Origin: Lachnospiraceae bacterium
GTDB lineage: Bacteria; Bacillota; Clostridia; Lachnospirales; Lachnospiraceae
Assembly (NCBI GenBank): GCA_900765975.1
Contig: CAAFTS010000118.1
Location: forward strand, 1-34,196
Direction: 5' to 3'
DNA: 34,196 nt
The translations under genes and the position numbers were made by a program. Numbering within the stretch: position 1 is the stretch's first letter; every line of letters begins with the position of its first letter. Below the pieces are notes generated by a model, which was given only the letters and a program-made list of their open reading frames with translations, was not told the origin of the DNA and made no database searches. Of this stretch, positions 2,591 to 22,824 are shown in pieces.

Positions 2591-3208
2591 ATGGAAAAAT
2601 CCACAATGCGTTGGATTTATGAATATAGCAGGAGTAATCTGATCTGGGTACTTTTACTGGCAGTTCTCAGTGGAGGGATTGCCGGAAGCTTTATTATGTT
2701 AGCGCTTATGTCAAGGCGTTTTCTAGATATTGCAACAGGGGTGGAACAAGGAAACTTAAATGTGCAGATATTATTTATCCTTGGACTGATTCTATTTCAG
2801 GCAGTTTTGAATATTATATGCAGCTATGTGCGAATGCGTGTGACAGCAAAGTTGGAAATACAAATACGAACAGGTATTTTTTCAACTATATTACGGAAAA
2901 AATATCACAAAATTGTGTATATGCATTCAGGAGAAATACTGAATCGTATGACAAGCGATATTGATATTGTGGTTGGTGCTGTTGTGGGAATGATACCGCA
3001 GGCGATTTCAATGTTTACAAAAATAGGTGCGGGTCTTATTGTATTGTTTGTTATGGATTCCGGCTTTACAGCAGTGGTATTAGGGATTGGTGTTCTGGTT
3101 TGTATATGTAGCCGCATTTATAGTAGGCATTTTAAGTATCTTCATAAAGAAGTACAGAGAACGAATGAAAAGGTGCGATCATATTACAGGAGTGCGTTGA
3201 AAATCTGA
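2591..3208 (+). CDS. ABC exporter, N-terminal membrane fragment (frameshifted)
   Basis: This 205-residue frame covers the first half of the membrane domain of an ABC exporter (ABC_membrane, type IV fold), with hydrophobic helices near 17-40, 53-78 and 138-175. The ATG at 2591 has AGGAGG six bases upstream (2579-2584). It stops at TGA 3206-3208 in the middle of the conserved segment that normally precedes VIKSF. The remainder of the transporter is in the next reading frame and its ATG (3208) overlaps this stop as TGATG. Adding one A to the A-run at 3200-3203 would join both parts as ...ALKNLMVIKSF..., exactly the family pattern. This is therefore best read as one gene of about 566 codons broken by a one-base deletion, real or a sequencing error. 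Confidence 0.85.
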   Translation: MEKSTMRWIYEYSRSNLIWVLLLAVLSGGIAGSFIMLALMSRRFLDIATGVEQGNLNVQILFILGLILFQAVLNIICSYVRMRVTAKLEIQIRTGIFSTILRKKYHKIVYMHSGEILNRMTSDIDIVVGAVVGMIPQAISMFTKIGAGLIVLFVMDSGFTAVVLGIGVLVCICSRIYSRHFKYLHKEVQRTNEKVRSYYRSALKI

Positions 3209-7915: not shown

Positions 7916-7940
7916 AAGACAGAAAAGAGGTAAATATAAA

Positions 7941-8888
7941 GTGAGTCAACCAGATGTATTGGTATATTTAATGACAGGATTTTTAGACAGCGGAAAAACA
8001 CAGTTTCTGGATTTTACATTGAAACAAGATTATTTTCAGATTGATGGGACAACTCTTTTGCTGCTTTGCGAAGAAGGAGAAGAAGAGTATGATGCAGAAG
8101 AACTGAAAAAATTTAATGTTATAATAGAAACTGTTGAGAGTCAGGAAGAATTAACGGAAGAGTATTTATTGGAGTTAGATATTAAATATCGGCCGGAGCG
8201 GGTTGTTGTTGAATATAATGGAATGTGGAAGGTCAGTGATTTTGAAAAGCTTACATTACCGACTGGCTGGGGAATAGAACAAAAGCTGACGACTGTAGAT
8301 GCCAGCACGTTTCAGATGTATCTGACAAACTTGAAACCGTTGTTTGTAGAAATGGTAAGAGGGGCTGAAATGGTACTTTTTAATCGCTGTACAGATTTAA
8401 AACCGTTGGCTGGATATCGGAGAAGCGTTAAAGTAGTAAGTCCTCAGGCAGAAGTGATTTTTGAAGATGAAGAAGGAGAAATTGAGAATATTTTTCAAGA
8501 TGATGTTCCGTATGATATGAGTGCGCCGGTGATTCGGATCCGACCGGAAGATTATGGAATCTGGTATGTGGATGTAATGGAAAATCAGGAGAAGTATCGT
8601 GGGAAAGTGGTGGAATATACGGCACGTGTATTGAAACCGAAAAGTTTTCCGTCTAAGTTATTTTTTCCGGGAAGAATGGCGATGACTTGCTGTGCAGATG
8701 ATACGACGTTTTTGGGGTATATCTGTAAGAGTGCATATGCTCCTAAATTAAAGGTGGGACAATGGGTGACAATCCGGGCGAAAATCAGATATGAAAACCT
8801 GGCAATGTATCATGGAAGCGGTCCGGTGCTGGAAGCGGAGTTTATAGAGGAGGCAGAGCCGATTCCGGAGTTGGTTTATTTTAATTAA
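7941..8888 (+). CDS. CobW-like P-loop protein fused to a DUF1980/YcgQ-like C-terminal domain
   Basis: The 315-residue protein begins with a CobW-type strand and P-loop (VLVYLMTGFLDSGKTQFLDF, GFLDSGKT at 13-20). It lacks the CxCC metal motif and a clear NKxD. From about residue 219 there is a separate domain starting YRGKVVEYTARVLKP, with GRMAMTCCADD near 244-254 and KVGQWVTIRAKI. The GR-x-x-MTCCA-x-D signature and the G-x-W-V strand resemble the C-terminal domain of the YcgQ/TIGR03943 family, whose members also lie near COG0523 GTPases and are thought to serve zinc homeostasis. This link is from memory, not a search. The open frame starts at 7905 inside the previous gene; the GTG at 7941 is preferred because AAGAGG (7925-7930) precedes it. 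It is probably a partner of the GTPase upstream. Confidence 0.8.
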   Translation: MSQPDVLVYLMTGFLDSGKTQFLDFTLKQDYFQIDGTTLLLLCEEGEEEYDAEELKKFNVIIETVESQEELTEEYLLELDIKYRPERVVVEYNGMWKVSDFEKLTLPTGWGIEQKLTTVDASTFQMYLTNLKPLFVEMVRGAEMVLFNRCTDLKPLAGYRRSVKVVSPQAEVIFEDEEGEIENIFQDDVPYDMSAPVIRIRPEDYGIWYVDVMENQEKYRGKVVEYTARVLKPKSFPSKLFFPGRMAMTCCADDTTFLGYICKSAYAPKLKVGQWVTIRAKIRYENLAMYHGSGPVLEAEFIEEAEPIPELVYFN

Positions 8889-9958: not shown

Positions 9959-10071
9959 AACCTTAACTGGGTGGAGAAGAGAACTTCTTTTCCTGAAAAG
10001 TTAATTTAATATGAAACCGGTATTCGTAAGGATCATAATCGGTATTTCATATGGAAAGGAGATACAAGAAG

Positions 10072-12603
10072 ATGGGGTTATATACCTATGACAGTACGGA
10101 GATTCCAAAAACAGAGCGTATTTCAAAATTGGTTGAGAATCTGTATGCGAAGATGCCGGAGATTGAGTCTGCACGTGCCGTCTTGATCACAGAATCTTAT
10201 AAACAGACAGAAAATGAGCCTATGGTAATCCGTAGGGCAAAGGCGTTTCAGCATATTTTGGAAAATATTCCGATCGTCATCCGGGATTTGGAACTGATTG
10301 TTGGAAGTACGACATTGGCTCCACGAGGATGTCAGACATATCCGGAGTTTTCGTACGAATGGCTAGAAGCTGAATTTGATACTGTTGAGACAAGAAGTGC
10401 AGATCCATTTTATATTTCAGAACAGACCAAAAGAGAGCTGAAAGAAGCTAATGCCTACTGGAAGGGGAAAACTACAAGTGAATTGGCGACAGCTTATATG
10501 GAACCAGAGACATTGCTGGCAATGGAGCATAATCTATTTACTCCGGGAAATTATTTTTATAACGGAGTTGGCCATGTAACGGTAAAGTACTGGGAAGTTC
10601 TTGAAATTGGATTTGGAGGTATCAAGGAAAAAGCAGAGGAGGAACTGGCAAAGCTTTGTCTTGCAGACGGAGATTACCAGAAAAAGTCACGCTTTTTACA
10701 GGCGGTTATGATCAGCTGTGATGCAGCTATCACATATGCTAGACGGTATGCGGAGCTGGCGCTCAGTGAGGCACAGAATTGTACAGATCCGGCCAGAAAG
10801 ATGGAATTGCTACAGATAGCGCAGAACTGTGCAAATGTTCCGGAAAAGGGAGCAACTAGTTTTTATGAGGCATGCCAGTCATTCTGGTTTGTGCAGCAGT
10901 TACTTCAGATTGAGTCTAGTGGACATTCTATTTCGCCAGGACGTTTTGATCAGTATATGTATCCGTATTATAAAAAAGATCTGGACAGCGGAAAACTGAC
11001 GAGAGAGTTTGCACAGGAATTGATGGATTGTATCTGGGTGAAGTTAAATGACTTGAACAAATGTCGTGATGCTGCATCTGCAGAAGGATTTGCAGGATAT
11101 AGTTTGTTTCAGAATCTGATCGCAGGCAGACAAAACAGTGAAGGAATTGATGTGACAAATGATCTTTCTTTTATGAGCATACAGGCTTCTATGCATGTAT
11201 TTTTGCCACAGCCATCGCTGTCAGTACGTGTGTGGAATGGAACACCGCATGAATTTTTGATTAAAGCAGCAGAATTGACACGAACAGGAATCGGACTTCC
11301 GGCGTACTATAATGACGAAGTAATCATTCCGTCCTTATTAAGTCGGGGATTAACATTAGAAGATGCACGCGATTATAACATCATTGGCTGTGTAGAACCG
11401 CAGAAAGCTGGAAAAACAGAAGGTTGGCATGATGCGGCGTTCTTTAATATGTGCCGGCCATTGGAATTGACTTTCCATAATGGAAAAGACAAGGGAGTCC
11501 AGGTTGGACCGCAGACAGGCGATGTGGAGAACATGCAAAGTTTTGAAGAATTCTACCGGGCTTATAAGATTCAGATGGATTATGCAATCAAGCTGCTTGT
11601 AAATGCAGACAATGCAATCGATATGGCTCATGCAGAGCGTTGTCCTCTTCCGTTTTTATCGTCTATGGTGGATGACTGCATGAAGAGTGGAAAAACAGTT
11701 CAAGAAGGTGGAGCTGTATACAACTTTACCGGACCGCAGGGGTTTGGTGTTGCCAATATGGCAGATTCACTCTATGTGGTAAAGAAACTAGTTTATGATG
11801 AAAAGAAACTGACGATGAAAGAACTGAAACAAGCGTTGACAGTGAATTATGGAAAAGGTCTAAAAGAAGAAGATATTGCAGCAATGACCAGTGAGATTGT
11901 GAGCGAGATGGAAGCGGCAGGACAGAAGGTTGGTGAAAGAGAAATTTCTGCAGTTCTTCAGACTGTTATAGCGGCGACAGAGTCACCGGAGATGAAAGCA
12001 AAGGGTGATCGGATTCTGGAGATGATCGAGGAAGTTCCGAAGTTTGGAAATGACTTACCAGAGGTGGATGCGTTTGCAAGGGATGTGGCATATACATATA
12101 CAAAGCCGCTTTTGAAATATCGGAATCCACGAGGTGGACAGTTCCAGGCGGGCTTATATCCGGTATCTGCAAATGTTCCTTTGGGAGCGCAGACAGGTGC
12201 CACACCGGATGGACGGCTTGCATATACGCCGGTTGCAGATGGCGTTTCACCATCGGCTGGAAAGGATGTAAGCGGACCGACAGCGGCGGCCAATTCTGTT
12301 TCCAGGCTGGACCATGGAATTGCATCAAACGGGACCTTATTTAATCAGAAATTCCATCCATCAGCGTTGAGTGGACGAAGAGGTCTTGAGAATTTTGTAG
12401 GGTTGATCCGTTCTTATTTTGATCAGAAGGGAAGCCATATGCAATTTAATGTAGTAAGTAGAGAAACACTTTTGGATGCGCAGAAACATCCGGAACAATA
12501 CAAGCACCTGGTTGTACGTGTGGCAGGCTACAGCGCGTTGTTTACAACTTTATCGAAGTCTTTGCAGGATGACATCATTCGCAGAACAGAGCAGGGATTC
12601 TGA
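10072..12603 (+). CDS. Glycyl radical diol dehydratase (1,2-propanediol/glycerol dehydratase type)
   Basis: This B12-independent enzyme removes water from a 1,2-diol by radical chemistry; with propanediol it yields propanal. The 843-residue protein is of normal family length. The thiyl-radical cysteine is Cys440 in IIGCVEPQKAG, the GCVEP form shared by diol dehydratases and choline lyase. The glycyl radical site is Gly819 in RVAGYSALF, 24 residues from the end. The ATG at 10072 is chosen (frame open from 10051) because AAAGGAG lies at 10055-10061 and the protein then begins MGLYTYD. It needs the activase encoded next. Neighbouring aldolase, PduL and PduQ genes favour propanediol over choline or glycerol. 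No long N-terminal targeting extension is visible. It is oxygen-sensitive by family, as expected for a gut anaerobe. Confidence 0.93.
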   Translation: MGLYTYDSTEIPKTERISKLVENLYAKMPEIESARAVLITESYKQTENEPMVIRRAKAFQHILENIPIVIRDLELIVGSTTLAPRGCQTYPEFSYEWLEAEFDTVETRSADPFYISEQTKRELKEANAYWKGKTTSELATAYMEPETLLAMEHNLFTPGNYFYNGVGHVTVKYWEVLEIGFGGIKEKAEEELAKLCLADGDYQKKSRFLQAVMISCDAAITYARRYAELALSEAQNCTDPARKMELLQIAQNCANVPEKGATSFYEACQSFWFVQQLLQIESSGHSISPGRFDQYMYPYYKKDLDSGKLTREFAQELMDCIWVKLNDLNKCRDAASAEGFAGYSLFQNLIAGRQNSEGIDVTNDLSFMSIQASMHVFLPQPSLSVRVWNGTPHEFLIKAAELTRTGIGLPAYYNDEVIIPSLLSRGLTLEDARDYNIIGCVEPQKAGKTEGWHDAAFFNMCRPLELTFHNGKDKGVQVGPQTGDVENMQSFEEFYRAYKIQMDYAIKLLVNADNAIDMAHAERCPLPFLSSMVDDCMKSGKTVQEGGAVYNFTGPQGFGVANMADSLYVVKKLVYDEKKLTMKELKQALTVNYGKGLKEEDIAAMTSEIVSEMEAAGQKVGEREISAVLQTVIAATESPEMKAKGDRILEMIEEVPKFGNDLPEVDAFARDVAYTYTKPLLKYRNPRGGQFQAGLYPVSANVPLGAQTGATPDGRLAYTPVADGVSPSAGKDVSGPTAAANSVSRLDHGIASNGTLFNQKFHPSALSGRRGLENFVGLIRSYFDQKGSHMQFNVVSRETLLDAQKHPEQYKHLVVRVAGYSALFTTLSKSLQDDIIRRTEQGF

Positions 12604-12638
12604 ATAGAGCGGGATTCTTGTGGAAAGGAACAAAAACA

Positions 12639-13433
12639 ATGCAGGACTATTTGAAAACAAAAGGACGGATTTTTGATATTCAACGTTATTCCATCCATGA
12701 TGGAAATGGAATTCGAACTATTGTATTTCTGAAAGGGTGTGCACTGCGATGCCGGTGGTGCTGCAATCCGGAATCTCAGTCTTATGAGATTCAGACCATG
12801 ATGGTGCAGGGAAAGCCTAAGGTAATCGGAGAAGATGTTACAGTAGAGGAAGTAATGGAAACGGTGGAAAAGGACCGCGCATATTATTGGAGAACCGGAG
12901 GCGGAATGACTTTATCCGGTGGAGAAAGTCTCTGTCAGCCGGAATTTGCCACTGCATTGCTGCGTGCGGCGCAGGAACGTGGAATCAATACAGCCATGGA
13001 AAGCATGGGGTATGCGAAATGGGAAGTAATTGAAACACTGCTTCCGTATCTGGATCAATATTTGCTGGATATTAAACATATGAATCCACAGAAACATAAA
13101 GAGTATACCGGGAAGAGCAATGAATTGATGTTGGAAAATGCAATGAAGATTGCGAAATCTGGGCAGACGGAGCTTAGTATCCGGGTACCGGTAATTCCGG
13201 GATTTAATGACACTCCAGAAGAAATTCAAGAAATTGCAGCATATACGAAACAGCTGGAACATGTGAAAAGGCTGCATCTTCTTCCATATCATCGTCTGGG
13301 ACAGGATAAGTATGATGGTCTTGGCAGGCCGTATTTGATGGGGGATGTGAAACCTCCGGAAAATGTGCAGATGGAAGAACTGTTAAAGATAGCCGAGGAT
13401 GTTTCCGGAATAGAATGTCAAATCGGAGGCTGA
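12639..13433 (+). CDS. Glycyl radical enzyme activating enzyme (radical SAM)
   Basis: This enzyme uses S-adenosylmethionine and a 4Fe-4S cluster to place the radical on the dehydratase glycine. The 264-residue protein has IFDIQRYSIHDGNGIRTIVFLKGC, the cluster motif Cys34-x3-Cys38-x2-Cys41, the SAM-binding GGGMTLSGGES near 88-98 and RVPVIPGFND. Most dehydratase activases carry an extra ferredoxin-like domain with two more clusters right after CNPES; here that stretch (about 45-75) has no cysteine at all, so the protein is built like pyruvate formate-lyase activase. ATG 12639 is preferred over the TTG at 12618 because GGAAAGGA (12622-12629) is well placed. It follows the dehydratase stop by 35 bases. 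Confidence 0.93.
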   Translation: MQDYLKTKGRIFDIQRYSIHDGNGIRTIVFLKGCALRCRWCCNPESQSYEIQTMMVQGKPKVIGEDVTVEEVMETVEKDRAYYWRTGGGMTLSGGESLCQPEFATALLRAAQERGINTAMESMGYAKWEVIETLLPYLDQYLLDIKHMNPQKHKEYTGKSNELMLENAMKIAKSGQTELSIRVPVIPGFNDTPEEIQEIAAYTKQLEHVKRLHLLPYHRLGQDKYDGLGRPYLMGDVKPPENVQMEELLKIAEDVSGIECQIGG

Positions 13434-13513
13434 TGAGAACTACAGATAGATGGTTTGGCAGAAGAATTACAAAAAACAACATAAATACAACACAAAAACC
13501 ACAAGAAAACAAG

Positions 13514-13542
13514 TTGACTGATGTGGGATTGTGTGGTAATAT
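13514..13542 (+). promoter_or_regulatory. Second promoter, ahead of the aldolase and shell genes
   Basis: TTGACT (13514-13519), a 17-base spacer and TAATAT (13537-13542) mirror the first promoter's -35 and spacing, with a weaker -10. An ACCACA lies at about 13498-13503, with TGTGGT at 13532-13537 overlapping the spacer and -10. It lies in the 166-base gap between activase and aldolase and would allow the aldolase and shell genes to be expressed apart from the dehydratase. Confidence 0.65.
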
Positions 13543-13561
13543 CAAATTAGCAACAACAAAA

Positions 13562-13577
13562 TACAACAATCGTTGTA
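13562..13577. promoter_or_regulatory. Palindromic operator candidate TACAAC-AATC-GTTGTA
   Basis: A perfect six-base inverted repeat with a four-base centre lies about 20 bases downstream of the second promoter's -10, just before the aldolase ribosome site. CAACA also occurs repeatedly nearby (AGCAACAACAAAATACAACA). A position after the start point suits a repressor; the DeoR protein encoded in the locus is the natural candidate. The same core (CAACA/TGTTG) occurs in the first promoter region. Confidence 0.5.
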
Positions 13578-13599
13578 ACAATCCAAGGAGGATAAAAGG

Positions 13600-14406
13600 A
13601 TGCAAAACGAATACGAAATTAAAAAAGAAATGTGTGAAATCGGAAAACGAGTTTACAATCGTGGAATGGTTGCAGCAAACGATGGTAACTTCTCTGTAAG
13701 AATCAGTGAAAATGAAGTTCTGTGTACACCAACAGGTGTCAGCAAAGGATTTATGACACCAGAATACATTTGTAAAGTAGACCTGGATGGAAATGTACTT
13801 CAGGCAAACAAAGGTTTCAAACCTTCATCAGAAATTAAGATGCACCTTCGTGTATACAAAGAGAGACCGGATGTAAAATCAGTTGTACATGCTCATCCAC
13901 TGTATGCGACAACATTTGCTATCGCAGGTATTCCGCTGACACAGCCAATTATGCCTGAGGCAGTAATCGCTTTGGGATGCGTGCCGATCGCAAAATATGG
14001 TACACCATCTACAGTTGAGATTCCGGATGCTGTATCTGAGCACCTTCAGTATTTTGATGCAGTTCTCCTTGAGAACCATGGAGCACTTGCTTATTCAGAT
14101 ACACTTTTGAATGCATATCACAAAATGGAGTCTTTGGAGTTCTATGCACGTCTCTTATGGCAGACAATGCAGATTGGCGGACCTCAGGAACTGAACGAAG
14201 AGCAGGTTGAAAAATTATACGAAATCAGAAGACAGATGGGACTTCCAGGAAAGCACCCAGCAAATCTTTGTCCGAATGCAATCGCTGGCAAACCAAGCTG
14301 CCATAGCTGTGGCGGATGTGGAAGCAGCGCAGCAGAAGCACCGGCAGCAGATGCAGATTTGATTGCTTCTATTACAAAAAAAGTAATGGAACAGCTTGGT
14401 AAATAA
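13600..14406 (+). CDS. Class II aldolase (L-fuculose-1-phosphate aldolase type) with C-terminal encapsulation peptide
   Basis: This zinc aldolase is expected to split a deoxyhexulose phosphate into DHAP and lactaldehyde, the precursor of 1,2-propanediol. The catalytic core covers about 1-215: NDGNFSVR, TPTGVSKG (substrate phosphate), PSSE with acid Glu78, and zinc ligands His97, His99 (VVHAHP) and His160 (ENHGAL). After the core comes a linker with Cys224, Cys234, Cys237 and Cys240 (C-x9-C-x2-C-x2-C), then Ala/Pro-rich sequence, then an amphipathic helix ADLIASITKKVMEQLGK at the very end that looks like a microcompartment targeting peptide. Plain FucA is about 215 residues, so the 53-residue tail is an addition. 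The ATG at 13600 has AAGGAGG upstream. An aldolase inside the shell is the mark of GRM5-type loci. Confidence 0.92.
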   Translation: MQNEYEIKKEMCEIGKRVYNRGMVAANDGNFSVRISENEVLCTPTGVSKGFMTPEYICKVDLDGNVLQANKGFKPSSEIKMHLRVYKERPDVKSVVHAHPLYATTFAIAGIPLTQPIMPEAVIALGCVPIAKYGTPSTVEIPDAVSEHLQYFDAVLLENHGALAYSDTLLNAYHKMESLEFYARLLWQTMQIGGPQELNEEQVEKLYEIRRQMGLPGKHPANLCPNAIAGKPSCHSCGGCGSSAAEAPAADADLIASITKKVMEQLGK

Positions 14407-14431
14407 GAATCACTAGACTAGGAGGCCTGCT

Positions 14432-14953
14432 ATGAATGAACAGGAAATCTCTAATGCGGTAAAAAAAGTATTGGAAGAGATGAAACAGCACGATTCCCAT
14501 ACAGAGATCGGTCATGTGTGTACCTGCAATAAATACAAGATGACGTTAGAACTTGCCAACGCTTTGATTGAAAAGGTTAAGGCGAAGGCTCAAGAGGTTG
14601 GCGTTCCTGTAGTGATTGCGGTGGCAGATAAGGCGGGACGGCCGGTGGCTGTTCAATGTATGGACGATGCGTACATAGCAAGTTTTGATATTGCGGTGAA
14701 TAAAGCCTTCACCTCGGCAAGTTTAAAGATGTCAACAGAGACATTGAGTACTTTGTGCAGACCGGGAGATTCCCTTTATGGCCTGCAATTCACAAATGAC
14801 GGTAAGATTGTGATTTTCGGCGGTGGTGAATTATTAGAGGTAGAAGGTAAAATAATAGGAGCACTTGGGGTGAGCGGCGGAAGTGCAGAGCAAGATACTG
14901 CAATTGCGGCTTACGGCAAGGACGCTCTGAAGGAGGTAATAGCGTGTCTGTAA
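14432..14953 (+). CDS. GlcG/HbpS family protein (PduO C-terminal-like) with N-terminal encapsulation peptide
   Basis: The 173-residue protein starts with an amphipathic helix (MNEQEISNAVKKVLEEMKQ) like those that target cargo to microcompartments, then a linker with His20, His23, His28, Cys30 and Cys32, then a GlcG/DUF336 domain from about 36 to the end (TLELANALIEKV, VVIAVADKAGRPVAVQCMDDA, SLYGLQFTNDGKIVIFGGGELL, GALGVSGGSAEQD). This domain is the C-terminal half of PduO and is known to bind haem in some relatives. The cobalamin adenosyltransferase half of PduO is absent, as fits a B12-free pathway. Its role in glycyl radical compartments is not settled; electron transfer or protection is possible. 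AGGAGG (14420-14425) precedes the ATG. Confidence 0.9.
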   Translation: MNEQEISNAVKKVLEEMKQHDSHTEIGHVCTCNKYKMTLELANALIEKVKAKAQEVGVPVVIAVADKAGRPVAVQCMDDAYIASFDIAVNKAFTSASLKMSTETLSTLCRPGDSLYGLQFTNDGKIVIFGGGELLEVEGKIIGALGVSGGSAEQDTAIAAYGKDALKEVIACL

Positions 14954-16332
14954 ACGAACAAATGGTTCAAGACATTGTACAGGAAGTCGTTGCCAAGATG
15001 CAGATTGCGTCAGACGTAAAAGGCAATCATGGCGTATTTTCTGATATGAACGAGGCAATCGCAGCTGCGAAAAAGGCGCAGAAGGTTGTTGGAAAAATGT
15101 CTATGGACCAGAGAGAAAAGATTATTTCCAATATTCGTACAAAAATCAAAGAAAATGCAGAAGTTTTTGCACGAATGGGAGTACAAGAAACCGGCATGGG
15201 AAATGTCGGTCATAAAATTTTGAAACATATGCTGGTAGCTGAAAAAACTCCTGGAACAGAAGATATCACTACAACAGCATGGTCCGGAGACAGAGGATTG
15301 ACTTTGATCGAGATGGGACCTTTTGGTGTGATTGGAGCAATTACACCATGTACGAATCCAAGTGAGACAGTATTATGTAACACTATGGGAATGCTGGCTG
15401 GAGGAAATACAGTTGTATTTAATCCACATCCGGCAGCAATCAAAACATCCATTTATGCAATCAATCTATTAAATGAAGCTTCTCTGGAAGCTGGCGGACC
15501 GGATAATATTGCAGTAACGGTAGAAAAACCAACGATGGAAACAAGCGATATTATGATGAAACATAAAGATATTCCGCTGATTGCAGCAACAGGTGGCCCG
15601 GGAGTTGTAACAGCAGTACTTTCTTCTGGTAAGAGAGGAATTGGAGCTGGAGCTGGAAACCCACCGGCATTGGTTGATGAAACAGCAGATATTCGTAAAG
15701 CAGCTGAAGATATTGTTAATGGATGTACATTTGATAACAATCTTCCATGTATTGCTGAAAAAGAAATCGTTGCAGTAGATTCTATTGCAGATGAATTGAT
15801 TCATTATATGGTATCTGAGCAAGGATGCTATATGATTACAAAAGAAGAGCAAGATGCTTTAACAAATGTTGTATTGAAAGGCGGACGTTTGAATCGTAAA
15901 TGTGTTGGACGTGACGCAAAGACATTGTTAGGTATGATAGGAATAACTGTTCCGGACAATATCAGATGTATTACATTTGAAGGACCAAAGGAACATCCGT
16001 TGATCGCAGAAGAGCTGATGATGCCGATATTGGGAGTTGTTAGAGCAAAAGACTTTGATGATGCAGTAGAGCAGGCAGTATGGCTCGAGCATGGAAACAG
16101 ACATTCAGCACACATCCATTCCAAGAATGTAGATAATATTACAAAATATGCGAAAGCAATTGATACTGCAATTCTTGTTAAGAATGGACCGTCCTATGCG
16201 GCTCTTGGATATGGCGGAGAAGGTTTCTGCACTTTCACTATAGCGAGTCGTACTGGTGAAGGATTAACAAGTGCAAGCACATTTACAAAGAGAAGACGTT
16301 GTGTAATGACAGACTCTCTGTGTATTAGATAA
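14944..16332 (+). CDS. pduP: CoA-acylating propionaldehyde dehydrogenase (PduP/EutE-like)
   Basis: This enzyme oxidises propanal with NAD and CoA to propionyl-CoA inside the shell. The 462-residue protein begins with a targeting-type helix (MSVNEQMVQDIVQEVVAKMQ), followed by a short linker and the aldehyde dehydrogenase fold: GPFGVIGAITPCTNPSE, ATGGPGVV (NAD/CoA site) and the catalytic Cys269 in NNLPCIAEKE. Length and order match PduP. The GTG start at 14944 overlaps the end of the GlcG gene by ten bases and has AAGGAGG inside that gene, so translation is coupled. Next in the pathway are PduL (acyl phosphate formation) and the alcohol dehydrogenases that regenerate NAD. Confidence 0.95.
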   Translation: MSVNEQMVQDIVQEVVAKMQIASDVKGNHGVFSDMNEAIAAAKKAQKVVGKMSMDQREKIISNIRTKIKENAEVFARMGVQETGMGNVGHKILKHMLVAEKTPGTEDITTTAWSGDRGLTLIEMGPFGVIGAITPCTNPSETVLCNTMGMLAGGNTVVFNPHPAAIKTSIYAINLLNEASLEAGGPDNIAVTVEKPTMETSDIMMKHKDIPLIAATGGPGVVTAVLSSGKRGIGAGAGNPPALVDETADIRKAAEDIVNGCTFDNNLPCIAEKEIVAVDSIADELIHYMVSEQGCYMITKEEQDALTNVVLKGGRLNRKCVGRDAKTLLGMIGITVPDNIRCITFEGPKEHPLIAEELMMPILGVVRAKDFDDAVEQAVWLEHGNRHSAHIHSKNVDNITKYAKAIDTAILVKNGPSYAALGYGGEGFCTFTIASRTGEGLTSASTFTKRRRCVMTDSLCIR

Positions 16333-16346
16333 TGGAGGAAATAAAA

Positions 16347-17564
16347 ATGGAAATGAATTCTTCTAATGTAGAAGCTGTTGTAAAACAGGTACTGGAAAGT
16401 ATGCTGAATCAGCAGGTTTCTGCTCCTGCAGCAAAAAGTGCAGCAGCAGGAAGTCAGGCAATTCCAAAAACAGCACATGTAGCAATGTTGACTGCTTTGG
16501 AACATTATGAAATTAAAGAATTCCCGATGCCGGAAGTTGGCGACGGAGATATTCTTGTAAAAGTTGAAGGATGTGGTGTCTGCGGAACAGATGCACACGA
16601 ATTCAAAAGAGATCCATTTGGATTGATTCCGGTAGCTTTGGGACACGAAGGAACCGGTGAAATCGTAAAGATGGGTAAAAACGTAAAAGTTGATAGCGCT
16701 GGAAAACCACTTAAAGTTGGAGATAAAGTTGTTACATGTATGATCTTCAAAGATGATCCGGATATTGAGATGTTTGATTTGAACAAGAAAAACATTGGTG
16801 GAGCTGATGTATACGGATTGCTTCCGGATGATGACATTCACTTGAATGGATGGTTTTCAGATTACATTTTAATTCGCGAAGGATCTTCCGTATTCAATGT
16901 TAGTGATCTGGATCTGAAGTCTAGAATTTTAATCGAGCCATGTGCAGTATTGATTCATGCGGTAGAGAGAGCAAAAACAACAGGTATTCTTAGATTCAAC
17001 AGCAGAGTTGTTGTTCAGGGATGCGGACCGATCGGTTTGATTTGTATTGCAATTCTTCGTACAATGGGTATTGAGAATATCGTTGCTGTAGATGGAAATC
17101 AGCAGAGACTTGATTTTGCAAAAGAGATGGGAGCAGAAAAATCAGTTAATTTCATGAACCATAAAGGGATTGATGCGTTATCAGATGCTGTAAAAGAGGC
17201 ATTTGGTGGACATGCAGCTGACTTTGCATTCCAGTGTACAGGATCTCCGGTTGCTCATGCAAATATCTACAAATTTATCCGCAATGGTGGTGGACTTTGT
17301 GAACTTGGATTCTTCATCAATGGTGGAGATGCTACAATTAATCCACATTTCGATCTTTGCGCGAAAGAAATTACATTGGTAGGATCTTGGGTATATACAC
17401 TGAGAGACTACGCTACAACATTTGATTTCTTGAAGAGAGCAAAAGGAATCGGACTTCCGATGGATAAACTTATTACACATGAGTTCCCGCTTGAGGAAAT
17501 TAACGAAGCACATGTGACCAATCTCAAACAGGCAGGTTTGAAGATTGCAATTGTGAATAAATAA
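16347..17564 (+). CDS. Zinc-type alcohol dehydrogenase (MDR family) with N-terminal encapsulation peptide
   Basis: The 405-residue protein has a targeting-type helix at about 5-20 (SSNVEAVVKQVLESML), an Ala/Ser-rich linker to about 42 and then a medium-chain dehydrogenase. Catalytic zinc ligands are Cys79 (GVCGTD) and His100/Glu101 (GHEGTGE); the NAD-binding turn is VVQGCGPIGL. The lobe that normally holds four cysteines for structural zinc is replaced by FKDDPDIEMFDLNKKNIGG with none. ATG 16347 is preferred over 16332 because GGAGG (16334-16338) is then correctly spaced. An iron-type dehydrogenase (PduQ-like) is also encoded, so this enzyme may do a different step, perhaps reducing lactaldehyde made by the encapsulated aldolase to 1,2-propanediol. 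That assignment is inference. Confidence 0.88.
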   Translation: MEMNSSNVEAVVKQVLESMLNQQVSAPAAKSAAAGSQAIPKTAHVAMLTALEHYEIKEFPMPEVGDGDILVKVEGCGVCGTDAHEFKRDPFGLIPVALGHEGTGEIVKMGKNVKVDSAGKPLKVGDKVVTCMIFKDDPDIEMFDLNKKNIGGADVYGLLPDDDIHLNGWFSDYILIREGSSVFNVSDLDLKSRILIEPCAVLIHAVERAKTTGILRFNSRVVVQGCGPIGLICIAILRTMGIENIVAVDGNQQRLDFAKEMGAEKSVNFMNHKGIDALSDAVKEAFGGHAADFAFQCTGSPVAHANIYKFIRNGGGLCELGFFINGGDATINPHFDLCAKEITLVGSWVYTLRDYATTFDFLKRAKGIGLPMDKLITHEFPLEEINEAHVTNLKQAGLKIAIVNK

Positions 17565-17597
17565 CAATAACGCAATCCCAGTAAAAGGAGAAATGAT

Positions 17598-17942
17598 ATG
17601 GGAGAAGCAGTAGGCATGTTGGAGGTATTCGGGTTGGCAACTGCGTTTGCAGCAGCAGATGCAGGATGTAAGGCAGGAAATGTCACGCTTGAAACCTTTG
17701 ATAAAAATAAACCGGCAAATGCAGATGAATTACCTGTACCTTTGATCGTTATGGTCAAGTTCCGCGGGAGTGTATCAGATGTTCAGGCAGCGTTAGATGC
17801 TGCTAAAGCCAGAGCAGAAGAACTGGCGGGTGTTGTCAATGAATATGAAATTGCGAGACCTACAGCGGATACAGAAAAAATGCTAAAAATCAGCGGTTTA
17901 GATAAAGGAACACCAAACAAAATATTTATAGAAGAAGTTTAG
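17598..17942 (+). CDS. Microcompartment shell protein, BMC-H with loop insertion and C-terminal extension
   Basis: This is a single BMC domain of 114 residues that should form hexameric tiles. It starts MGEAVGMLEVFGLATAFAAADAGCKAGNV, as BMC-H proteins do. The pore loop between strands 2 and 3 is longer than usual (DKNKPANADELPVP) and lacks the GSG of its neighbours, and a 20-residue extension (GLDKGTPNKIFIEEV) follows the normal end. A different pore and an extra tail suggest a specialised tile. AAGGAG (17585-17590) sits seven bases ahead of the ATG. It opens a run of four shell genes. Confidence 0.9.
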   Translation: MGEAVGMLEVFGLATAFAAADAGCKAGNVTLETFDKNKPANADELPVPLIVMVKFRGSVSDVQAALDAAKARAEELAGVVNEYEIARPTADTEKMLKISGLDKGTPNKIFIEEV

Positions 17943-17955
17943 GAGGATATAAAAA

Positions 17956-18231
17956 ATGGCACAGCAGGCATTAGGAATGGTAGAAACAAGAGGTCTTACA
18001 GCAGCAATCGAGGCAGCAGATGCAATGACAAAAGCAGCTGAGGTTACATTGGTAGGAACAGAGAAAATCGGTTCTGGACTTGTAACAGTTATGGTACGTG
18101 GAGATGTTGGAGCTGTTAAGGCAGCTGTTGAAACAGGAGCAGATGCAGCAGGAAGACTTGGAGAGCTTGTAGCTACACACGTAATCCCGAGACCGCACAA
18201 CGATGTAGAGAAAATCCTTCCTACCGTTTAA
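17956..18231 (+). CDS. Microcompartment shell protein, canonical BMC-H (PduA/EutM-like)
   Basis: This 91-residue protein is a textbook hexamer-forming BMC domain: [23 protein letters not shown], the pore loop [24 protein letters not shown] and the end motif [18 protein letters not shown] at the pore is the usual narrow, small-polar-metabolite opening. AGGAGG at 17941-17946 overlaps the previous stop. The gene is closely similar in protein and DNA to the body of the shell gene at 18728-19006, so the two arose by local duplication. It is likely a major facet protein. Confidence 0.96.
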
Positions 18232-18272
18232 TTTGAGGAGAAAACCGTTAACAATAGCAAAGGAGCAGTCTC

Positions 18273-18557
18273 ATGGGACAGGCATATGGATTTTTTGAAA
18301 TTCCGAGTGTGACCGCTGCGGTTGTAGCTTTGGATATTATGTGCAAAACTGCAGATGTACAGATGGTCACATGGGAGAAAAAATTAGGTGGAAGACTTGT
18401 AACAATTATTATTCGCGGAGATGTTTCTGCGGTAACACAAGCGATTGAAACTGCCGCAGCCAACGGAATTAAGAAACCTGTTGCTCATGTGGTGATTGCG
18501 AGTCCTCATGAAGAAGTTATCAAGCTGGTAAACAGCAGCGCAAATCGAATTGCGTAA
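18273..18557 (+). CDS. Microcompartment shell protein, divergent BMC-H with an Arg-containing pore loop
   Basis: This 94-residue single BMC domain ([29 protein letters not shown] ... [12 protein letters not shown]) is clearly different from its neighbours. Its pore loop reads [11 protein letters not shown] in place of [10 protein letters not shown], which would put Arg at or near the pore and could select anions such as phosphate esters, acyl phosphates or CoA compounds; this is inference from the loop. Cys23 lies in helix 1. A ribosome site AAGGAG (18260-18265) precedes the ATG. It is otherwise of normal length, with no extension. Confidence 0.93.
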
Positions 18558-18571
18558 GGAGGGCAGTTACA

Positions 18572-19006
18572 ATGGCAGAGGAAAAAAAGACTACAGCGAA
18601 AGCTGCAGCAACAAAGAAAACGACAACTGCCAAGTCTCCTGCAAAAACTGTACAGAGAGTTCGTAAGACAGTACAGAAGGCGGAGACAAAGGCAGAAACA
18701 ATCACAATTCAAAAGGAGGAAAAAAGAATGTCACAGGAAGCATTAGGAATGGTTGAAACAAGAGGTTTAGTAGCATCAATCGAAGCAGCAGATACAATGC
18801 TGAAAGCTGCAAACGTAGTTTTAGTAGGAACAGAGAAAATCGGATCTGGACTTGTAACAGTTATGGTACGTGGAGATGTCGGAGCTGTTAAATCTGCAGT
18901 TGAGTCTGGAGCAGAAGCAGCAGGAAGACTTGGAGAGCTTGTAGCTACACACGTAATTCCAAGACCTCATACAGATGTTGAGAAAATTCTTCCGGCAATC
19001 AAATAA
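18572..19006 (+). CDS. BMC-H shell protein with Lys/Ala-rich histone-like N-terminal tail (possible dual start)
   Basis: From the ATG at 18572 (AAGGAGG at 18557-18563) this frame makes 144 residues. The first 52 are disordered-looking and very basic: repeated Ala, Lys and Thr ([20 protein letters not shown]..., then [14 protein letters not shown]), much like a histone H1 tail. The rest, from Met53, is a full canonical BMC-H of 92 residues ([14 protein letters not shown] ... [15 protein letters not shown] ... [15 protein letters not shown]). Met53 (18728) has its own strong ribosome site (GGAGG, eight bases upstream), so two products are likely: the plain tile and a tailed tile. The tail could bind nucleic acid, anionic cargo or neighbouring shells. 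No such tail is known to me in canonical PduA/EutM proteins. Confidence 0.9.
18715..18730 (+). promoter_or_regulatory. Internal ribosome-binding site and in-frame start inside the tailed shell gene
   Basis: GGAGG (18715-18719, within AAAAGGAGGA) is followed eight bases later by ATG at 18728, in frame with the long product. Its strength equals that of the other shell genes. It marks where the canonical 92-residue shell protein begins and argues that both forms are translated. Confidence 0.75.
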
Positions 19007-19020
19007 TTGTTTTGCTAATT

Positions 19021-19119
19021 ATATGATATGAGCAGGGTATCACCTGGAGGGGGAATAAACTCTTTTCTGGTGATACCCTTGTATCAAAATATCATATATG
19101 CAATAACTATATTGCATAT
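19021..19119 (+). promoter_or_regulatory. Large nested hairpins between the shell genes and pduL
   Basis: AGGGTATCACC (19034-19044) pairs perfectly with 19069-19079 across a 24-base loop. Outside it ATATGATAT (19021-19029) can pair with 19089-19097. A second hairpin, ATATGCAAT (19096-19104) with 19111-19119, follows at once and shares two bases with that outer arm. The first stem has no T-run, so it is not a plain terminator; the second is followed by only a short CTTTT. mRNA processing, stability or attenuation between shell and enzyme genes are possible roles. Confidence 0.6.
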
Positions 19120-19137
19120 ACTTTTAGGAGAATTGAT

Positions 19138-19782
19138 ATGGACAATAATAACGTAGCATTAATTACAAAAATGGTATTAGATGCAATTGAAAACCAGAAA
19201 ACGGCAAAAGAAAACGGCTATATGGTTCCGGTTGGTGTATCTGCAAGACATGTACATTTGACACAGGAGCATGTAGAAGCGTTATTTGGCGAAGGGTATC
19301 AATTGACAGAGAAAAAAGAACTGATGGGTGGACAGTTTGCTTCAAATGAAACTGTTACAATTGTTGGTTTAAAACTTCGTGCAATTGAAAATGTTCGTAT
19401 TCTTGGACCTGTAAGAAGTAAATCTCAGGTAGAAGTGTCTGCTACAGATGCTATTCGTTTAGGGGTAAAGGCTCCGATTAGAGAGTCAGGAAATATTGCA
19501 GGTTCTGCACCGATTGCTGTTGTAGGACCAAAAGGTGTTATTTATCTAAACGAAGGTTGTATCGTTGCAAAGAGACATATTCATATGTCTCCAAAGGATG
19601 CAATGGCAGCTGGAGTGCATGACGGCGATATTGTTTCTGTAAAAGCTGATAATGAGCGCGGAACTGTATTTAACAATGTACAGATTCGTGTAGATGACAG
19701 CTTTACACTGGAAATGCATATCGACACAGACGAAGCGAATGCAGCAAAAATTGCAACTGGAGATACAATGCGTATCATCTAG
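19138..19782 (+). CDS. pduL: Phosphate propanoyltransferase PduL
   Basis: PduL converts propionyl-CoA and phosphate to propionyl-phosphate and CoA, recycling CoA inside the shell. The 214-residue protein begins with a targeting-type helix (NNVALITKMVLDAIENQ, about 4-20), as in encapsulated PduL. Then come the two PduL half-barrels with the zinc ligands in VSARHVHL (His38, His40) and in AKRHIHMSP (near 148-150). Length matches the family. TTTTAGGAG precedes the ATG. The 131-base gap before it, filled by hairpins, is among the longest between genes of this locus. Confidence 0.96.
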   Translation: MDNNNVALITKMVLDAIENQKTAKENGYMVPVGVSARHVHLTQEHVEALFGEGYQLTEKKELMGGQFASNETVTIVGLKLRAIENVRILGPVRSKSQVEVSATDAIRLGVKAPIRESGNIAGSAPIAVVGPKGVIYLNEGCIVAKRHIHMSPKDAMAAGVHDGDIVSVKADNERGTVFNNVQIRVDDSFTLEMHIDTDEANAAKIATGDTMRII

Positions 19783-19806
19783 GCATTTGCATGAGGAGAG
19801 ATTATT

Positions 19807-20073
19807 ATGTTGATAGGAAAAGTTGCAGGCAGTGTTGTTTCAACACGAAAAAGCGACAATTTGATTGGAAATAAGTTCATGATTGTAGATGTGTTGGAGC
19901 ATATGCAGACTGGAGCAAAGCAGATTATTGCAATTGATAAGATTGGAGCAGGAATCGGCGATTATGTACTTGTAGCACAGGGAAGTGCAGCAAGAGTGGG
20001 CTCCGGTATGCCAGACGCACCTATCGATGCTGCAATCGTTGGAATTATTGACGATGGAACAGGACTGGAGTAA
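19807..20073 (+). CDS. Microcompartment vertex protein, EutN/CcmL family (BMC-P)
   Basis: This is an 88-residue pentamer-forming protein that caps shell vertices. It shows the family start MLIGKVAGSVVSTRKSDNLIGNKFMIVD, the middle IAIDKIGAGIGDYVLVAQGSAAR and the end DAAIVGIIDDGT. One such gene is enough to close the shell, and no second copy is in the window. An AGGAG site (about 19793-19797) lies upstream of the ATG. The next gene starts seven bases after the stop. Confidence 0.95.
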   Translation: MLIGKVAGSVVSTRKSDNLIGNKFMIVDVLEHMQTGAKQIIAIDKIGAGIGDYVLVAQGSAARVGSGMPDAPIDAAIVGIIDDGTGLE

Positions 20074-20080
20074 AAAAATT

Positions 20081-21424
20081 ATGGATATGAAAGAATTAAG
20101 CAGCATATTGCAGCAAAGTGGTATTGTCGGTGCAGGTGGTGCGGGATTTCCTACATATGCTAAGTTAAATGAAAATGCTGAAACACTGATTATGAACTGT
20201 GCAGAGTGTGAACCACTTCTGAGATTACATAGACAGTTGTTAGAAAAATATGCACAGGAGATTGTGGATACATTCCATTTAATCGGACAGGCTGTTGGTG
20301 CGAAAGAACTTGTAATCGGTATTAAAAAAGCCTATACAAAGACAATTGAAGCATTACAGGGTGTTATTGGTGCATATCCGGAAGTACGTTTGGGATTACT
20401 TGATGAAGTATATCCGGCCGGCGATGAGGTTGTATTGATTTATGAAGTAACCGGTAAAGTAGTTCGTCCGGGAGGACTTCCGATTGAACAAGGCGTTGCA
20501 GTATTCAATGTAGAAACCGTATACAATGCATATAGAGCAATTAACCAACAGACTCCAGTAGTAGATAAACTGGTGTCAGTTGTTGCAGAAGTAGAGAATC
20601 CAATTACTGTACGTGTTCCGATTGGAACATCAATTGAAGAAACAGTAAGATTAGCTGGTGCATCTACAACAAAGAACCCGGTATATTTTGTCGGGGGACC
20701 AATGATGGGAAATATAGGAAGTGGCTCACAGCCGGTTACTAAGACAACAAATGCTGTTTTGGTACTTCCAGAAGATCATTATATTATTCAGAGAAAGAGA
20801 CAAAAAACATCTATTGATCTGAAGAGAGCAGCCGCAAGTTGTTGTCAGTGTACAATGTGTACAGATTTGTGTCCAAGAAATAGACTGGGACACCCGATCG
20901 AACCACATTTATTCATGCGTGCGGCTACATGTAAAGATGTTCAAGATCCGAATATCTTTGTTAATACATTTTTCTGTTGCTCTTGTGGACTTTGTGAATT
21001 GTATTCTTGTTTCCAGGGACTTTCACCAAGAACATTGATGGCAGAATACAAGGCAGGATTACGTGCAAATGGATTAAAACCACCGCAGGTAACTGCAGCT
21101 CCGGTAGGACCTGAAAGAGAATATCGTAAGGTGCCTATGGAAAGACTGATGGCAAGATTAGACTTGACAAAATACAACAAAGAAGCTCCATTGGATGAAT
21201 CTGTTGTACCGGTGCCGAGAGTTAAAATCTTACTTGGTCAGCATATTGGAGCGCCTGCTTCTCCAATCGTTAAGCAGGGCGATACTGTGACAAAGGGACA
21301 GATGATCGCAGAACCGGCAAAAGGTTTAAGTGTAGGAATTCATGCATCTATTGACGGTACCGTAGTAGAAGTCAGTGATAAGTATGTAATCATAGAAACA
21401 CAGGGAGGACGTGCAGATAAATGA
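20081..21424 (+). CDS. pduS: PduS-like RnfC-family flavoprotein with two iron-sulfur motifs
   Basis: PduS is an FMN and 4Fe-4S protein that passes electrons from NADH. The 447-residue protein has the RnfC/NuoF-type nucleotide region VGAGGAGFPTYAKL near 13-26 and NCAECEP near 41, then two ferredoxin-like cysteine groups, CCQCTMCTDLCPRNR near 253-267 and CCSCGLCELYSC near 298-309. A biotinyl/SLBB-like end (GASIDGTVVEVS-type region) completes it. In B12 systems it serves cobalamin reduction; here there is no B12 enzyme, so a redox role such as NADH reoxidation or electron export through the PduT-like trimer encoded next is more likely. The frame is open from 19985, but ATG 20081 is chosen as it follows the EutN stop and has GGAG (20067-20070). 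It overlaps the next gene by four bases (ATGA). Confidence 0.93.
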   Translation: MDMKELSSILQQSGIVGAGGAGFPTYAKLNENAETLIMNCAECEPLLRLHRQLLEKYAQEIVDTFHLIGQAVGAKELVIGIKKAYTKTIEALQGVIGAYPEVRLGLLDEVYPAGDEVVLIYEVTGKVVRPGGLPIEQGVAVFNVETVYNAYRAINQQTPVVDKLVSVVAEVENPITVRVPIGTSIEETVRLAGASTTKNPVYFVGGPMMGNIGSGSQPVTKTTNAVLVLPEDHYIIQRKRQKTSIDLKRAAASCCQCTMCTDLCPRNRLGHPIEPHLFMRAATCKDVQDPNIFVNTFFCCSCGLCELYSCFQGLSPRTLMAEYKAGLRANGLKPPQVTAAPVGPEREYRKVPMERLMARLDLTKYNKEAPLDESVVPVPRVKILLGQHIGAPASPIVKQGDTVTKGQMIAEPAKGLSVGIHASIDGTVVEVSDKYVIIETQGGRADK

Positions 21425-21969
21425 GTAAGGCAATTGGAATGGTAGAATATAAGACTGTTTCAGCAGGTATCACAGCAGCAGATGCTATGGTAAAAACTTC
21501 TGAAATCAGTATCATTGAATCTCAGACTGTATGCCCGGGTAAATATATTGTAATTATTTCAGGTGATTTAAGTGCTGTAACAGCAGCAGTTGAGACAGCT
21601 AAAACATTACATGGCACACATTTGATCAACAGTTTCGTGCTTGGTAATCCGCATGAATCAATCTTCCCAGCTATTTATGGGGCTACACATATTGAAGATG
21701 TATCCGCTCTTGGTATAATGGAGACATATGATGCGACTACAATTATTGTAGCTGCTGATGAAGCTGCAAAAACTGCAATCGTAGATTTGATTGAGCTTCG
21801 TGTAGCAAGGGGAATGTGTGGTAAGTCATATTTGTTGCTGACAGGAGAAGTTGCAGCTGTTGAAGCGGCAATTGAGCGTGCAAAAAATGTGGCGGCAGAA
21901 GATGGAATGTATTTAGATTCATCTGTAATTGCACATCCGGACAAACAAATAAGGGATGCAATATTGTAA
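21421..21969 (+). CDS. pduT: PduT-like tandem-domain shell protein (BMC-T) with pore cysteines
   Basis: This 182-residue protein of two BMC domains forms trimers that look like hexamers. Domain 1 (1-90) has VCPGKY with Cys38, the same position as the cluster-binding cysteine of PduT, where three subunits hold a 4Fe-4S cluster at the pore. Domain 2 (95-182) has GMCGKSY with Cys133 at the equivalent place, four residues before the same Tyr. The trimer would then show six cysteines around its pore, unlike standard PduT. The ATGA overlap with pduS couples their translation, fitting a partnership in which PduS feeds electrons to the shell cluster. Confidence 0.93.
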   Translation: MSKAIGMVEYKTVSAGITAADAMVKTSEISIIESQTVCPGKYIVIISGDLSAVTAAVETAKTLHGTHLINSFVLGNPHESIFPAIYGATHIEDVSALGIMETYDATTIIVAADEAAKTAIVDLIELRVARGMCGKSYLLLTGEVAAVEAAIERAKNVAAEDGMYLDSSVIAHPDKQIRDAIL

Positions 21970-21980
21970 AAAATTAAGGC

Positions 21981-22020
21981 AGGGTCATGGACCTTCTATA
22001 GCTAGAGGGAACATGACCTT
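21981..22020 (+). promoter_or_regulatory. Long hairpin between the PduT-like gene and the regulator gene
   Basis: AGGGTCATG (21981-21989) pairs with CATGACCTT (22012-22020, one G-U), and inside it CCTTCTA (21992-21998) pairs with TAGAGGG (22003-22009) around loop TAGC. This is a 16-pair stem with a 2x2 internal loop. No T-run follows (GGAGTG), so it is not a standard terminator. It resembles the hairpin at 19034 in its GCAGGGT start and may set the 3' end or stability of the upstream mRNA. Confidence 0.6.
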
Positions 22021-22059
22021 GGAGTGTATAAGAAATATATGAGACCGGGAGGCAGTGCT

Positions 22060-22824
22060 ATGCTTGCAATTGAGAGACGAAAAGAAATTTTGATGAAGCT
22101 GCAGGCCGAACGGCGGGTAGTGGTAAGTGAATTAAGTCAGCTTTATGATGTGTCAGAAGAGACGATACGACGTGATTTGGAAAAACTTGTAAATGACGGC
22201 GTTGCAATCAAAAGCTATGGCGGAGCAGTTTTGAATGAAAATTCGAACTTAGATCTTCCGTTTAATATTAGAAAAAATCGAAATGTAATCGGAAAACAAC
22301 GAATTGCCGAGCAAATCGTGAAACTGGTAAAGGATGGAGACAGTATTATGCTGGATGCCAGCTCTACTGCAGTATATATCGCGAAAGCGTTAAAAGAAAA
22401 GAAGAACTTAACGGTAATTACCAATTCAATTGAAATTATTATTGAATTGTTGGACATGCCGGAGTGGCATGTGTTTTCAACCGGCGGATTGACAAGAGAA
22501 GGTTCCTTTGCTCTTGTAGGGCCACAGACAGACAAAATGTTAAAGTCTTTTCATGTTAATAAAGCGATTATATCTTGTAAGGGTGTTGGAACAGATAAAT
22601 ATCTGACAGATTCGGATGAACTTCATGCAAACAATAAGCTGACAATGTTAGAATCCGCAGAAATGAAAATTCTGGCAGTAGACAGCAGTAAATTTGACAA
22701 CACAGCATTTACAGCAATAGGAACGCTGGATGATATCACGACTGTCGTTACCAATGAAGAACCGGAAGCAAAATGGCTTCAGTTGTTTGAGGAAACCGGG
22801 GTAGAATGTATTTATCCTAGATAG
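22060..22824 (+). CDS. DeoR-family transcriptional regulator
   Basis: This 254-residue regulator has a winged helix-turn-helix at about 4-55 (IERRKEILMKLQAERRVVVSELSQLYDVSEETIRRDLEKL, ending YGGAV) and a DeoR sugar-phosphate sensor domain (MLDASSTAVYIAKAL, TNSIEI, TGG, KAIISCKGV). Such proteins usually repress sugar operons until a phosphorylated sugar binds; a fucose or rhamnose pathway phosphate would fit here. ATG 22060 is preferred over an upstream ATG at 22024 because GGGAGG (22047-22052) lies seven bases ahead and the family start follows. Likely operators are the CAACA/TGTTGG elements of the two promoters. It lies 90 bases after the shell genes and ten before the alcohol dehydrogenase. 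Confidence 0.94.
   Translation: MLAIERRKEILMKLQAERRVVVSELSQLYDVSEETIRRDLEKLVNDGVAIKSYGGAVLNENSNLDLPFNIRKNRNVIGKQRIAEQIVKLVKDGDSIMLDASSTAVYIAKALKEKKNLTVITNSIEIIIELLDMPEWHVFSTGGLTREGSFALVGPQTDKMLKSFHVNKAIISCKGVGTDKYLTDSDELHANNKLTMLESAEMKILAVDSSKFDNTAFTAIGTLDDITTVVTNEEPEAKWLQLFEETGVECIYPR

Follow-up and report, generated by a model that had tools for sequence, protein, structure and literature searches.

A shell-protein gene of a Lachnospiraceae bacterium appears to encode the same BMC-H tile in two forms, one plain and one carrying a lysine-rich N-terminal tail, from two in-frame starts within a single reading frame. The gene lies in a fucose/rhamnose BMC locus of the GRM5 type, in the window, which is the whole stretch of 34,196 nucleotides that was analyzed (contig CAAFTS010000118.1). 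On balance, the gene is best explained as a dual-start tailed tile, the lysine-rich tails of which would form an outward fringe that serves as a tether or spacer. The features concerned are:

10051..22824, + strand: GRM5 fucose/rhamnose BMC locus, complete, recognized by family searches
17956..18231, + strand: plain BMC-H paralog that shares 85% identity with the body of the tailed gene
18273..18557, + strand: divergent BMC-H gene directly upstream of the tailed gene
18556..18562, + strand: Shine-Dalgarno AAGGAGG of the upstream start (tailed form), sharing bases with the TAA stop that ends the BMC-H gene before it
18572..19006, + strand: tailed BMC-H gene, 144 aa (52-aa tail plus 92-aa body), read directly
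18572..18727, + strand: N-terminal tail, 52 aa, Lys/Thr/Ala/Glu-rich, net charge +9, start ATG at 18572
18713..18720, + strand: internal Shine-Dalgarno AAGGAGGA, coding for Lys-Glu-Glu in the frame of the tail
18728..18730, + strand: internal in-frame ATG, putative start of the plain BMC-H form
18728..19006, + strand: canonical PduA/EutM-type BMC-H body, 92 aa plus stop, from PF00936 and a structure model
19138..19782, + strand: pduL phosphate propanoyltransferase, the syntenic marker adjoining the tailed gene

The tailed protein contains a single PF00936 domain (residues 57-132, E 5.8e-30) with the canonical BMC-H motifs KAAN (residues 78-81) and PRPH (130-133), and an AlphaFold monomer model of the 144 residues, built on a diverse alignment of 45 sequences, reaches pLDDT 90-95 in the blocks spanning 61-130, with PduA and EutM as the best structural matches. 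BMC matches extend to residue 141 of 144, so that a C-terminal extension of the PduK/EutK type is absent. As in PduB/PduB', there are two in-frame starts with a ribosome site each; there is one PF00936 domain rather than the two fused BMC domains of PduB. That the body has its own ribosome site and an in-frame ATG at 18728 had been proposed in a preliminary description of this DNA, and this holds, with AAGGAGGA at 18713-18720.

The GRM5 locus encodes a glycyl-radical enzyme, its activase, a class II aldolase, an aldehyde dehydrogenase, a zinc alcohol dehydrogenase and PduL, together with an HbpS-like protein, shell genes, BMC-P, PduS-like and PduT-like proteins and a DeoR regulator. GRM5 loci are recognized by a glycyl-radical enzyme and activase, a class II aldolase, a lactaldehyde reductase (PF00107/PF08240) and PduS and PduT homologs, the activase being without a ferredoxin insertion (PMC6325248). 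The window's locus contains the corresponding PF02901/PF01228, PF04055, PF00596 and PF00107/PF08240 matches, and PF00037 is not among the Pfam matches listed for the PF04055 activase; the PduS-like (RnfC-type matches) and PduT-like assignments both fall under the curated cut-offs. The plain paralog at 17956..18231 is a possible co-assembling partner of the tailed tile. In the same locus, the N-terminus of the HbpS-like (PF03928) protein at 14432-14953 resembles an encapsulation peptide. Elsewhere in the window, what appears by eye to be an ABC exporter occupies two ORFs at 2591-4290, which overlap through TGATG at about 3206-3210 and may represent either two coupled halves or one gene broken by a frameshift, and two neighboring CobW-like GTPase-type ORFs, also recognized by eye, lie at 6869-8888, the first with long His-rich runs.

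It is very probable that one gene makes both the plain and the tailed tile by dual initiation, because an in-frame tail, retention of the internal AAGGAGG and Met, and purifying selection on the tail codons are all found in sequence comparisons. Of 154 pduL-adjacent BMC-H genes (taken from 160 loci and the window, seven of these sources yielding none; the set is redundant and partly picked by similarity), 119 have an in-frame tail that is 25 aa or longer, a threshold of our own setting, with tails of 14-24 aa also occurring (L116, L123, L127, L143). AAGGAGG stands within 20 nt before the internal ATG in 116 of the 119 tailed genes, and the distance from AGGAGG to the ATG is identical in 116/119. 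In three of the 119, Val replaces Glu at the third codon (KEV), so that the protein is altered and AAGGAGG is kept. AGGAGG is found at that same distance in 18 of 27 genes with fewer than 10 aa upstream. At the protein level, two homology searches listed 238 homologs, of which 231 are tailed (at least two of the 231 being fused to the shell gene upstream); the internal Met is retained in 231/231, and Lys-Glu-Glu/Asp precedes it in 223/231.

The codons used at this site point in the same direction. The Lys-Glu pair just before the internal start is encoded by AAGGAG in 78/78 tails, as against 0/30 for Lys-Glu at other places in these tails and an expectation from codon usage of about 10% per gene; these 78 rows (the window and 77 of 80 loci, with L049, L065 and L079 left out by the start rules) are related sequences and not independent events. 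Of 525 confirmed relatives, these 80 loci are the best 80 when ordered by their resemblance to tailed proteins, an order that favors tailed genes. Among them, tails of differing length remain in frame, and in 80/80 the body Met of the long frame has AAGGAGG before it, one of the two search patterns behind the locus set having contained that Met. The upstream site is a clear AGGAGG (AGGAGGC-type) in most relatives of the window's clade and less regular outside it, with AGGGGG in Blautia-type loci and weak sites in L047 and L074. The preliminary expectation that one gene gives both forms thus agrees with the recurrence of both ribosome sites in relatives; conservation of the two sites, which was to be checked, is seen in nearly all tailed genes for the internal one (AAGGAGG in 116/119) and in most relatives of the clade for the upstream one. 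In a simple energy model that adds pairing with the ribosome and unfolding cost, and that covers 73 of the 78 genes, the internal site beats the upstream site in 69/73, a result that correction of three start choices leaves unaltered; the window's own internal start is favored by only about 1.3 kcal/mol. From this we infer that the plain form is probably the majority product and the tailed form the minority in most species.

The tail itself is almost certainly translated and selected as protein, judging by its codons. Upstream of the pduL-adjacent gene, the median number of open in-frame codons is 53, with at least 25 in 120/146, compared with a median of 5 before the start of the plain paralog upstream of it, with at least 25 in 4/140. 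Over 82 gap-free, non-independent pairs, pN/pS is 0.16 at pS 0.24 for the tail and 0.03 at pS 0.24 for the body; over 15 non-overlapping pairs it is 0.21 at pS 0.14 and 0.03 at pS 0.17, respectively, and the tail evolves several-fold faster than the body. Because tail synonymous sites outside the ribosome site are not unusually constrained, the signal of selection lies at the amino-acid level. A chance open frame is ruled out by the purifying selection on the tail and by an upstream frame far longer than that of the paralog.

The composition of the window's tail (K12 T11 A9 E6 V3 Q3 R3 I2 M1 S1 P1 over 52 aa) largely bears out the earlier remark that the residues before the body are nearly all Lys, Ala, Thr, Glu and Val (41/52). 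The stretch that was quoted there as histone-H1-like is present, yet the term was overstated and fits a short stretch only: with one Pro and six Glu in 52 aa, the tail shows neither the KPAA-type repeats nor the Lys/Ala/Pro-rich character of the H1-like tails of AlgP and PhaF. Across 98 distinct tails, K makes up 19%, A 17%, E 13% and T 12%, aromatics are nearly absent, and the hydrophobic fraction is 0.11-0.12. Net charge has a median of +6 and is positive in 92/98; six of the 98 are neutral or acidic, the lowest at -4. An AP-x-K/R-T/A core is present in 49 distinct tails, of which 49/49 are net positive, and the other 49, without this core, range from slightly negative to positive. Tail length among the 231 tailed homologs is 24-151 aa, the fusions included, and 210 of them are net positive and 21 are not; the idea that the tail is always basic is rejected on these counts. 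In 26 homologs selected from the top matches, A20 K21 P23 A24 T26 R29 V30 form an invariant core. AlphaFold gives the tail pLDDT 50-59 per block over residues 1-50 and places a low-confidence helix at 25-53, so that disorder is a prediction only; the tail is read here as a predicted disordered, lysine-rich, mostly net-positive polyampholyte of low hydrophobicity. Pfam searches with the full-length protein, its tail and three homologs returned, beyond PF00936, only weak low-complexity matches that are not credible (best 0.0085). The tail alone matches two designed barrels among solved structures (E 0.003), for which homology is not claimed.

How widespread the tail is was also gauged in a draw of 397 genomes from the family of one relative, which is less biased than the 80-locus set, though its query was also tailed. 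A close BMC-H is present in 112 of the 397, and 78 of these 112 yielded 76 pduL-adjacent genes, of which 43 reach the 25-aa threshold and 33 have a shorter tail or none, indicating that the tail is dispensable over evolution. One locus each from 30 of the other 34 genomes, with one of the 30 adjoining pduL, showed no lysine-rich tail among upstream frames of more than 20 codons. On a tree of 132 distinct body-plus-PduL rows, made by a quick method and counting as tail at least 14 aa with Lys/Arg, tail state requires at least 15 changes, by which a tail conserved everywhere is rejected; with 61 of 129 inner branches open, gain and loss are inseparable on this tree. As for whether the tail sequence would prove conserved in relatives, the in-frame lysine-rich extension is kept, and the exact sequence is not.

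The 80 loci are labeled mostly as Mediterraneibacter, Faecalicatena, Blautia or Lachnospiraceae bacterium, and some only as Ruminococcus, Eubacterium, Clostridium or Eubacteriales. The carriers so labeled we take to belong to Lachnospiraceae. Several details bear on individual entries of the survey: L081-L110 partly duplicate L001-L080; among the 35 genes classed as untailed, contig ends truncate L034 and L049; L069, L071 and L075 are tailed and stand outside the 154, the pduL pattern having missed pduL there; starts were set by a scoring rule and three lie too far upstream (L061, L066, L077), so that individual tail lengths may be off; and the weak cases L107 and L158 may not be true tails. 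The mini-tails of 14-23 aa in L127 and L143 (also L116 and L123) show the same Lys-rich style and an internal ribosome site, and perhaps represent steps in the gain or loss of a tail. In P0005 (222 aa) and P0130 (212 aa), on one contig each, an upstream shell gene of the type at 18273 is fused to tail and body into a tandem shell protein, which could be genuine or the product of misassembly. In L065, the tailed gene (L065:10130) and the plain paralog (L065:9396) both start with an unusual MVQQALGM and share the ribosome-site spacer, suggesting gene conversion between paralogs.

For function, initiation at the upstream ATG would yield tailed BMC-H and initiation at the internal ATG plain BMC-H, and both kinds of subunit, perhaps with the 85%-identical paralog, would mix in hexamers; such mixing would give a shell with a tunable number of tails, the tailed subunits probably in the minority. 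Mixed hexamers of this kind are consistent with the reported cross-compatibility of BMC-H paralogs (PMC12058022). The N-terminus of PduA lies on the concave face, which is cytosol-facing in recombinant shells, with ambiguity stated for native shells (PMC6109187), and in a GRM2 particle the convex faces are turned toward the lumen (PMC6971018). With the N-terminus of canonical BMC-H placed in this way, the tails most likely fringe the shell exterior. By this analogy an outside position is probable, and it is rather likely that the tail acts as an outward spacer or tether of some kind.

A more tentative prediction, drawn by analogy with PhaF/AlgP, is that in the window's clade, where each distinct tail counted with the core is net positive, the fringe would anchor compartments to a polyanion, for example the nucleoid, and would keep them from clumping. 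The absence of KPAA repeats and the many Glu argue against an AlgP-like role. Since 6/98 distinct tails and 21/231 homologs are not net positive, polyanion binding is not a universal role, and since basicity is clade-dependent (92/98 net positive, down to -4), the nucleic-acid tethering suggested in the preliminary description is not to be assumed group-wide. A scan for the ParA-type Walker motif KGG[VTAS]GKT found none in the window and L001-L190 (loci of about 3 to 20 kb). That dual initiation sets the number of outer lysine-rich tails, and that fucose/rhamnose compartments are nucleoid-borne or nucleoid-spaced without a ParA-type motor, is conceivable and rather doubtful.

The alternative that survives best, itself unlikely, is that the tail is an entropic, polyampholyte bristle that spaces compartments or sheets, or tunes curvature or size, with no specific partner. 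Tail length varies from 24 to 151 aa, the sequence drifts as composition and low hydrophobicity persist, and acidic tails are tolerated, all of which would suit a bristle, as would the report that an altered, slightly longer C-terminus of CmcC increased particle yield in recombinant GRM2 shells; truncated CmcC likewise gave large particles (PMC6971018). However, the invariant core in the 26 selected homologs and a tail pN/pS of about 0.2 exceed the need of pure bulk. Improbable to a further degree is a PduB-like luminal tether for cargo or assembly, by which the tailed tile, and not the plain one, would grip the enzyme core. PduB/PduB' provide a published long/short pair in which the first 37 PduB residues link shell and core (PMC9132943), and native shell orientation is not fully settled (PMC6109187). 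Nevertheless, canonical BMC-H proteins have their N-terminus on the concave side, and the core piece of the tail, with a hydrophobic fraction of 0.13 and net +5, is far less hydrophobic than five helical cargo peptides picked from the GRM5 locus (0.32-0.45, net -2 to +1), making it unlike an encapsulation-type helix and a luminal grip on cargo less likely. There is very little to be said for the upstream start as a coupling or regulatory device with an incidental tailed product: the stronger internal site in 69/73 genes of the energy model and the non-consensus upstream site in some loci would fit, but a regulatory leader could leave the frame and would be free to change its residues, whereas the tails show protein-level selection, no stop before the body and ordinary synonymous divergence. 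Least credible is that the tailed protein alone is made, with the internal AAGGAGG and ATG as remnants of an ancestral plain gene, since a relic in drifting coding sequence should decay, yet AAGGAG is kept in 78/78 and Met in 231/231, even if AAGGAGG before the body in 22 of 35 genes without a 25-aa tail points to a possibly ancestral site.

PduB belongs to the trimeric shell proteins with two circularly permuted domains (BMC-T). Like the dual-start tile proposed here, PduB/PduB' of the Salmonella Pdu system comprise a long and a short form made from overlapping genes, which differ by a 37-aa N-terminal extension (PMC9132943). The tailed gene differs from PduB in its single PduA/EutM-type PF00936 domain and in a tail that is basic and poorly hydrophobic. 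PduK and EutK, for which no dual start is known to us, also join a BMC-H body to a long extension, theirs being C-terminal and partly structured. PduK influences the distribution of Pdu compartments in the cell (PMC9132943), and the EutK extension has a nucleic-acid-binding-type fold (PMC12058022). AlgP and PhaF likewise carry a Lys/Ala-rich tail on an organelle-bound protein, that of AlgP being disordered, and their basic tails are needed for granule spacing on the nucleoid (PMC13052382, PMC9239181); unlike the tailed tile, they have KPAA repeats, a C-terminal tail and an unrelated granule-binding domain, and DNA binding is reported for them.

In Clostridium phytofermentans, Cphy_1182 occupies the same position in a GRM5 locus, adjoining the PduL gene Cphy_1183, and a table footnote confines its PduA alignment to residues 73-161, which implies a tail of about 70 residues; its table values of 73.7 (fucose) and 47.4 (rhamnose) are taken here as fold induction (PMC3557285). 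In the accessible parts of that paper, no discussion of the extension or of an internal start was found. A catalogue of BMC loci records BMC-H extensions of up to 200 residues, mostly C-terminal (PMC8217296). The earlier remark that no such tail was known from studied PduA/EutM proteins overstates the novelty in view of the PduB/PduB' long/short pair (PMC9132943) and the Cphy_1182 footnote (PMC3557285). In the literature searched, which was seen in part and has most subscription journals outside its scope, no discussion of this BMC-H tail was found. The dual-start, N-terminally tailed BMC-H thus appears to be common and without description in the searchable literature, its principle being known from PduB/PduB' and AlgP/PhaF.

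The positioning of metabolosomes and their sharing at division are largely open beyond carboxysomes and Salmonella Pdu, according to a review (PMC13052382). In a common group of gut bacteria, one gene would supply its own internal control, a tile that comes both bare and tailed. Were the tail to tether compartments to the nucleoid, it would position them without a motor and offer a way to engineer shell surfaces.
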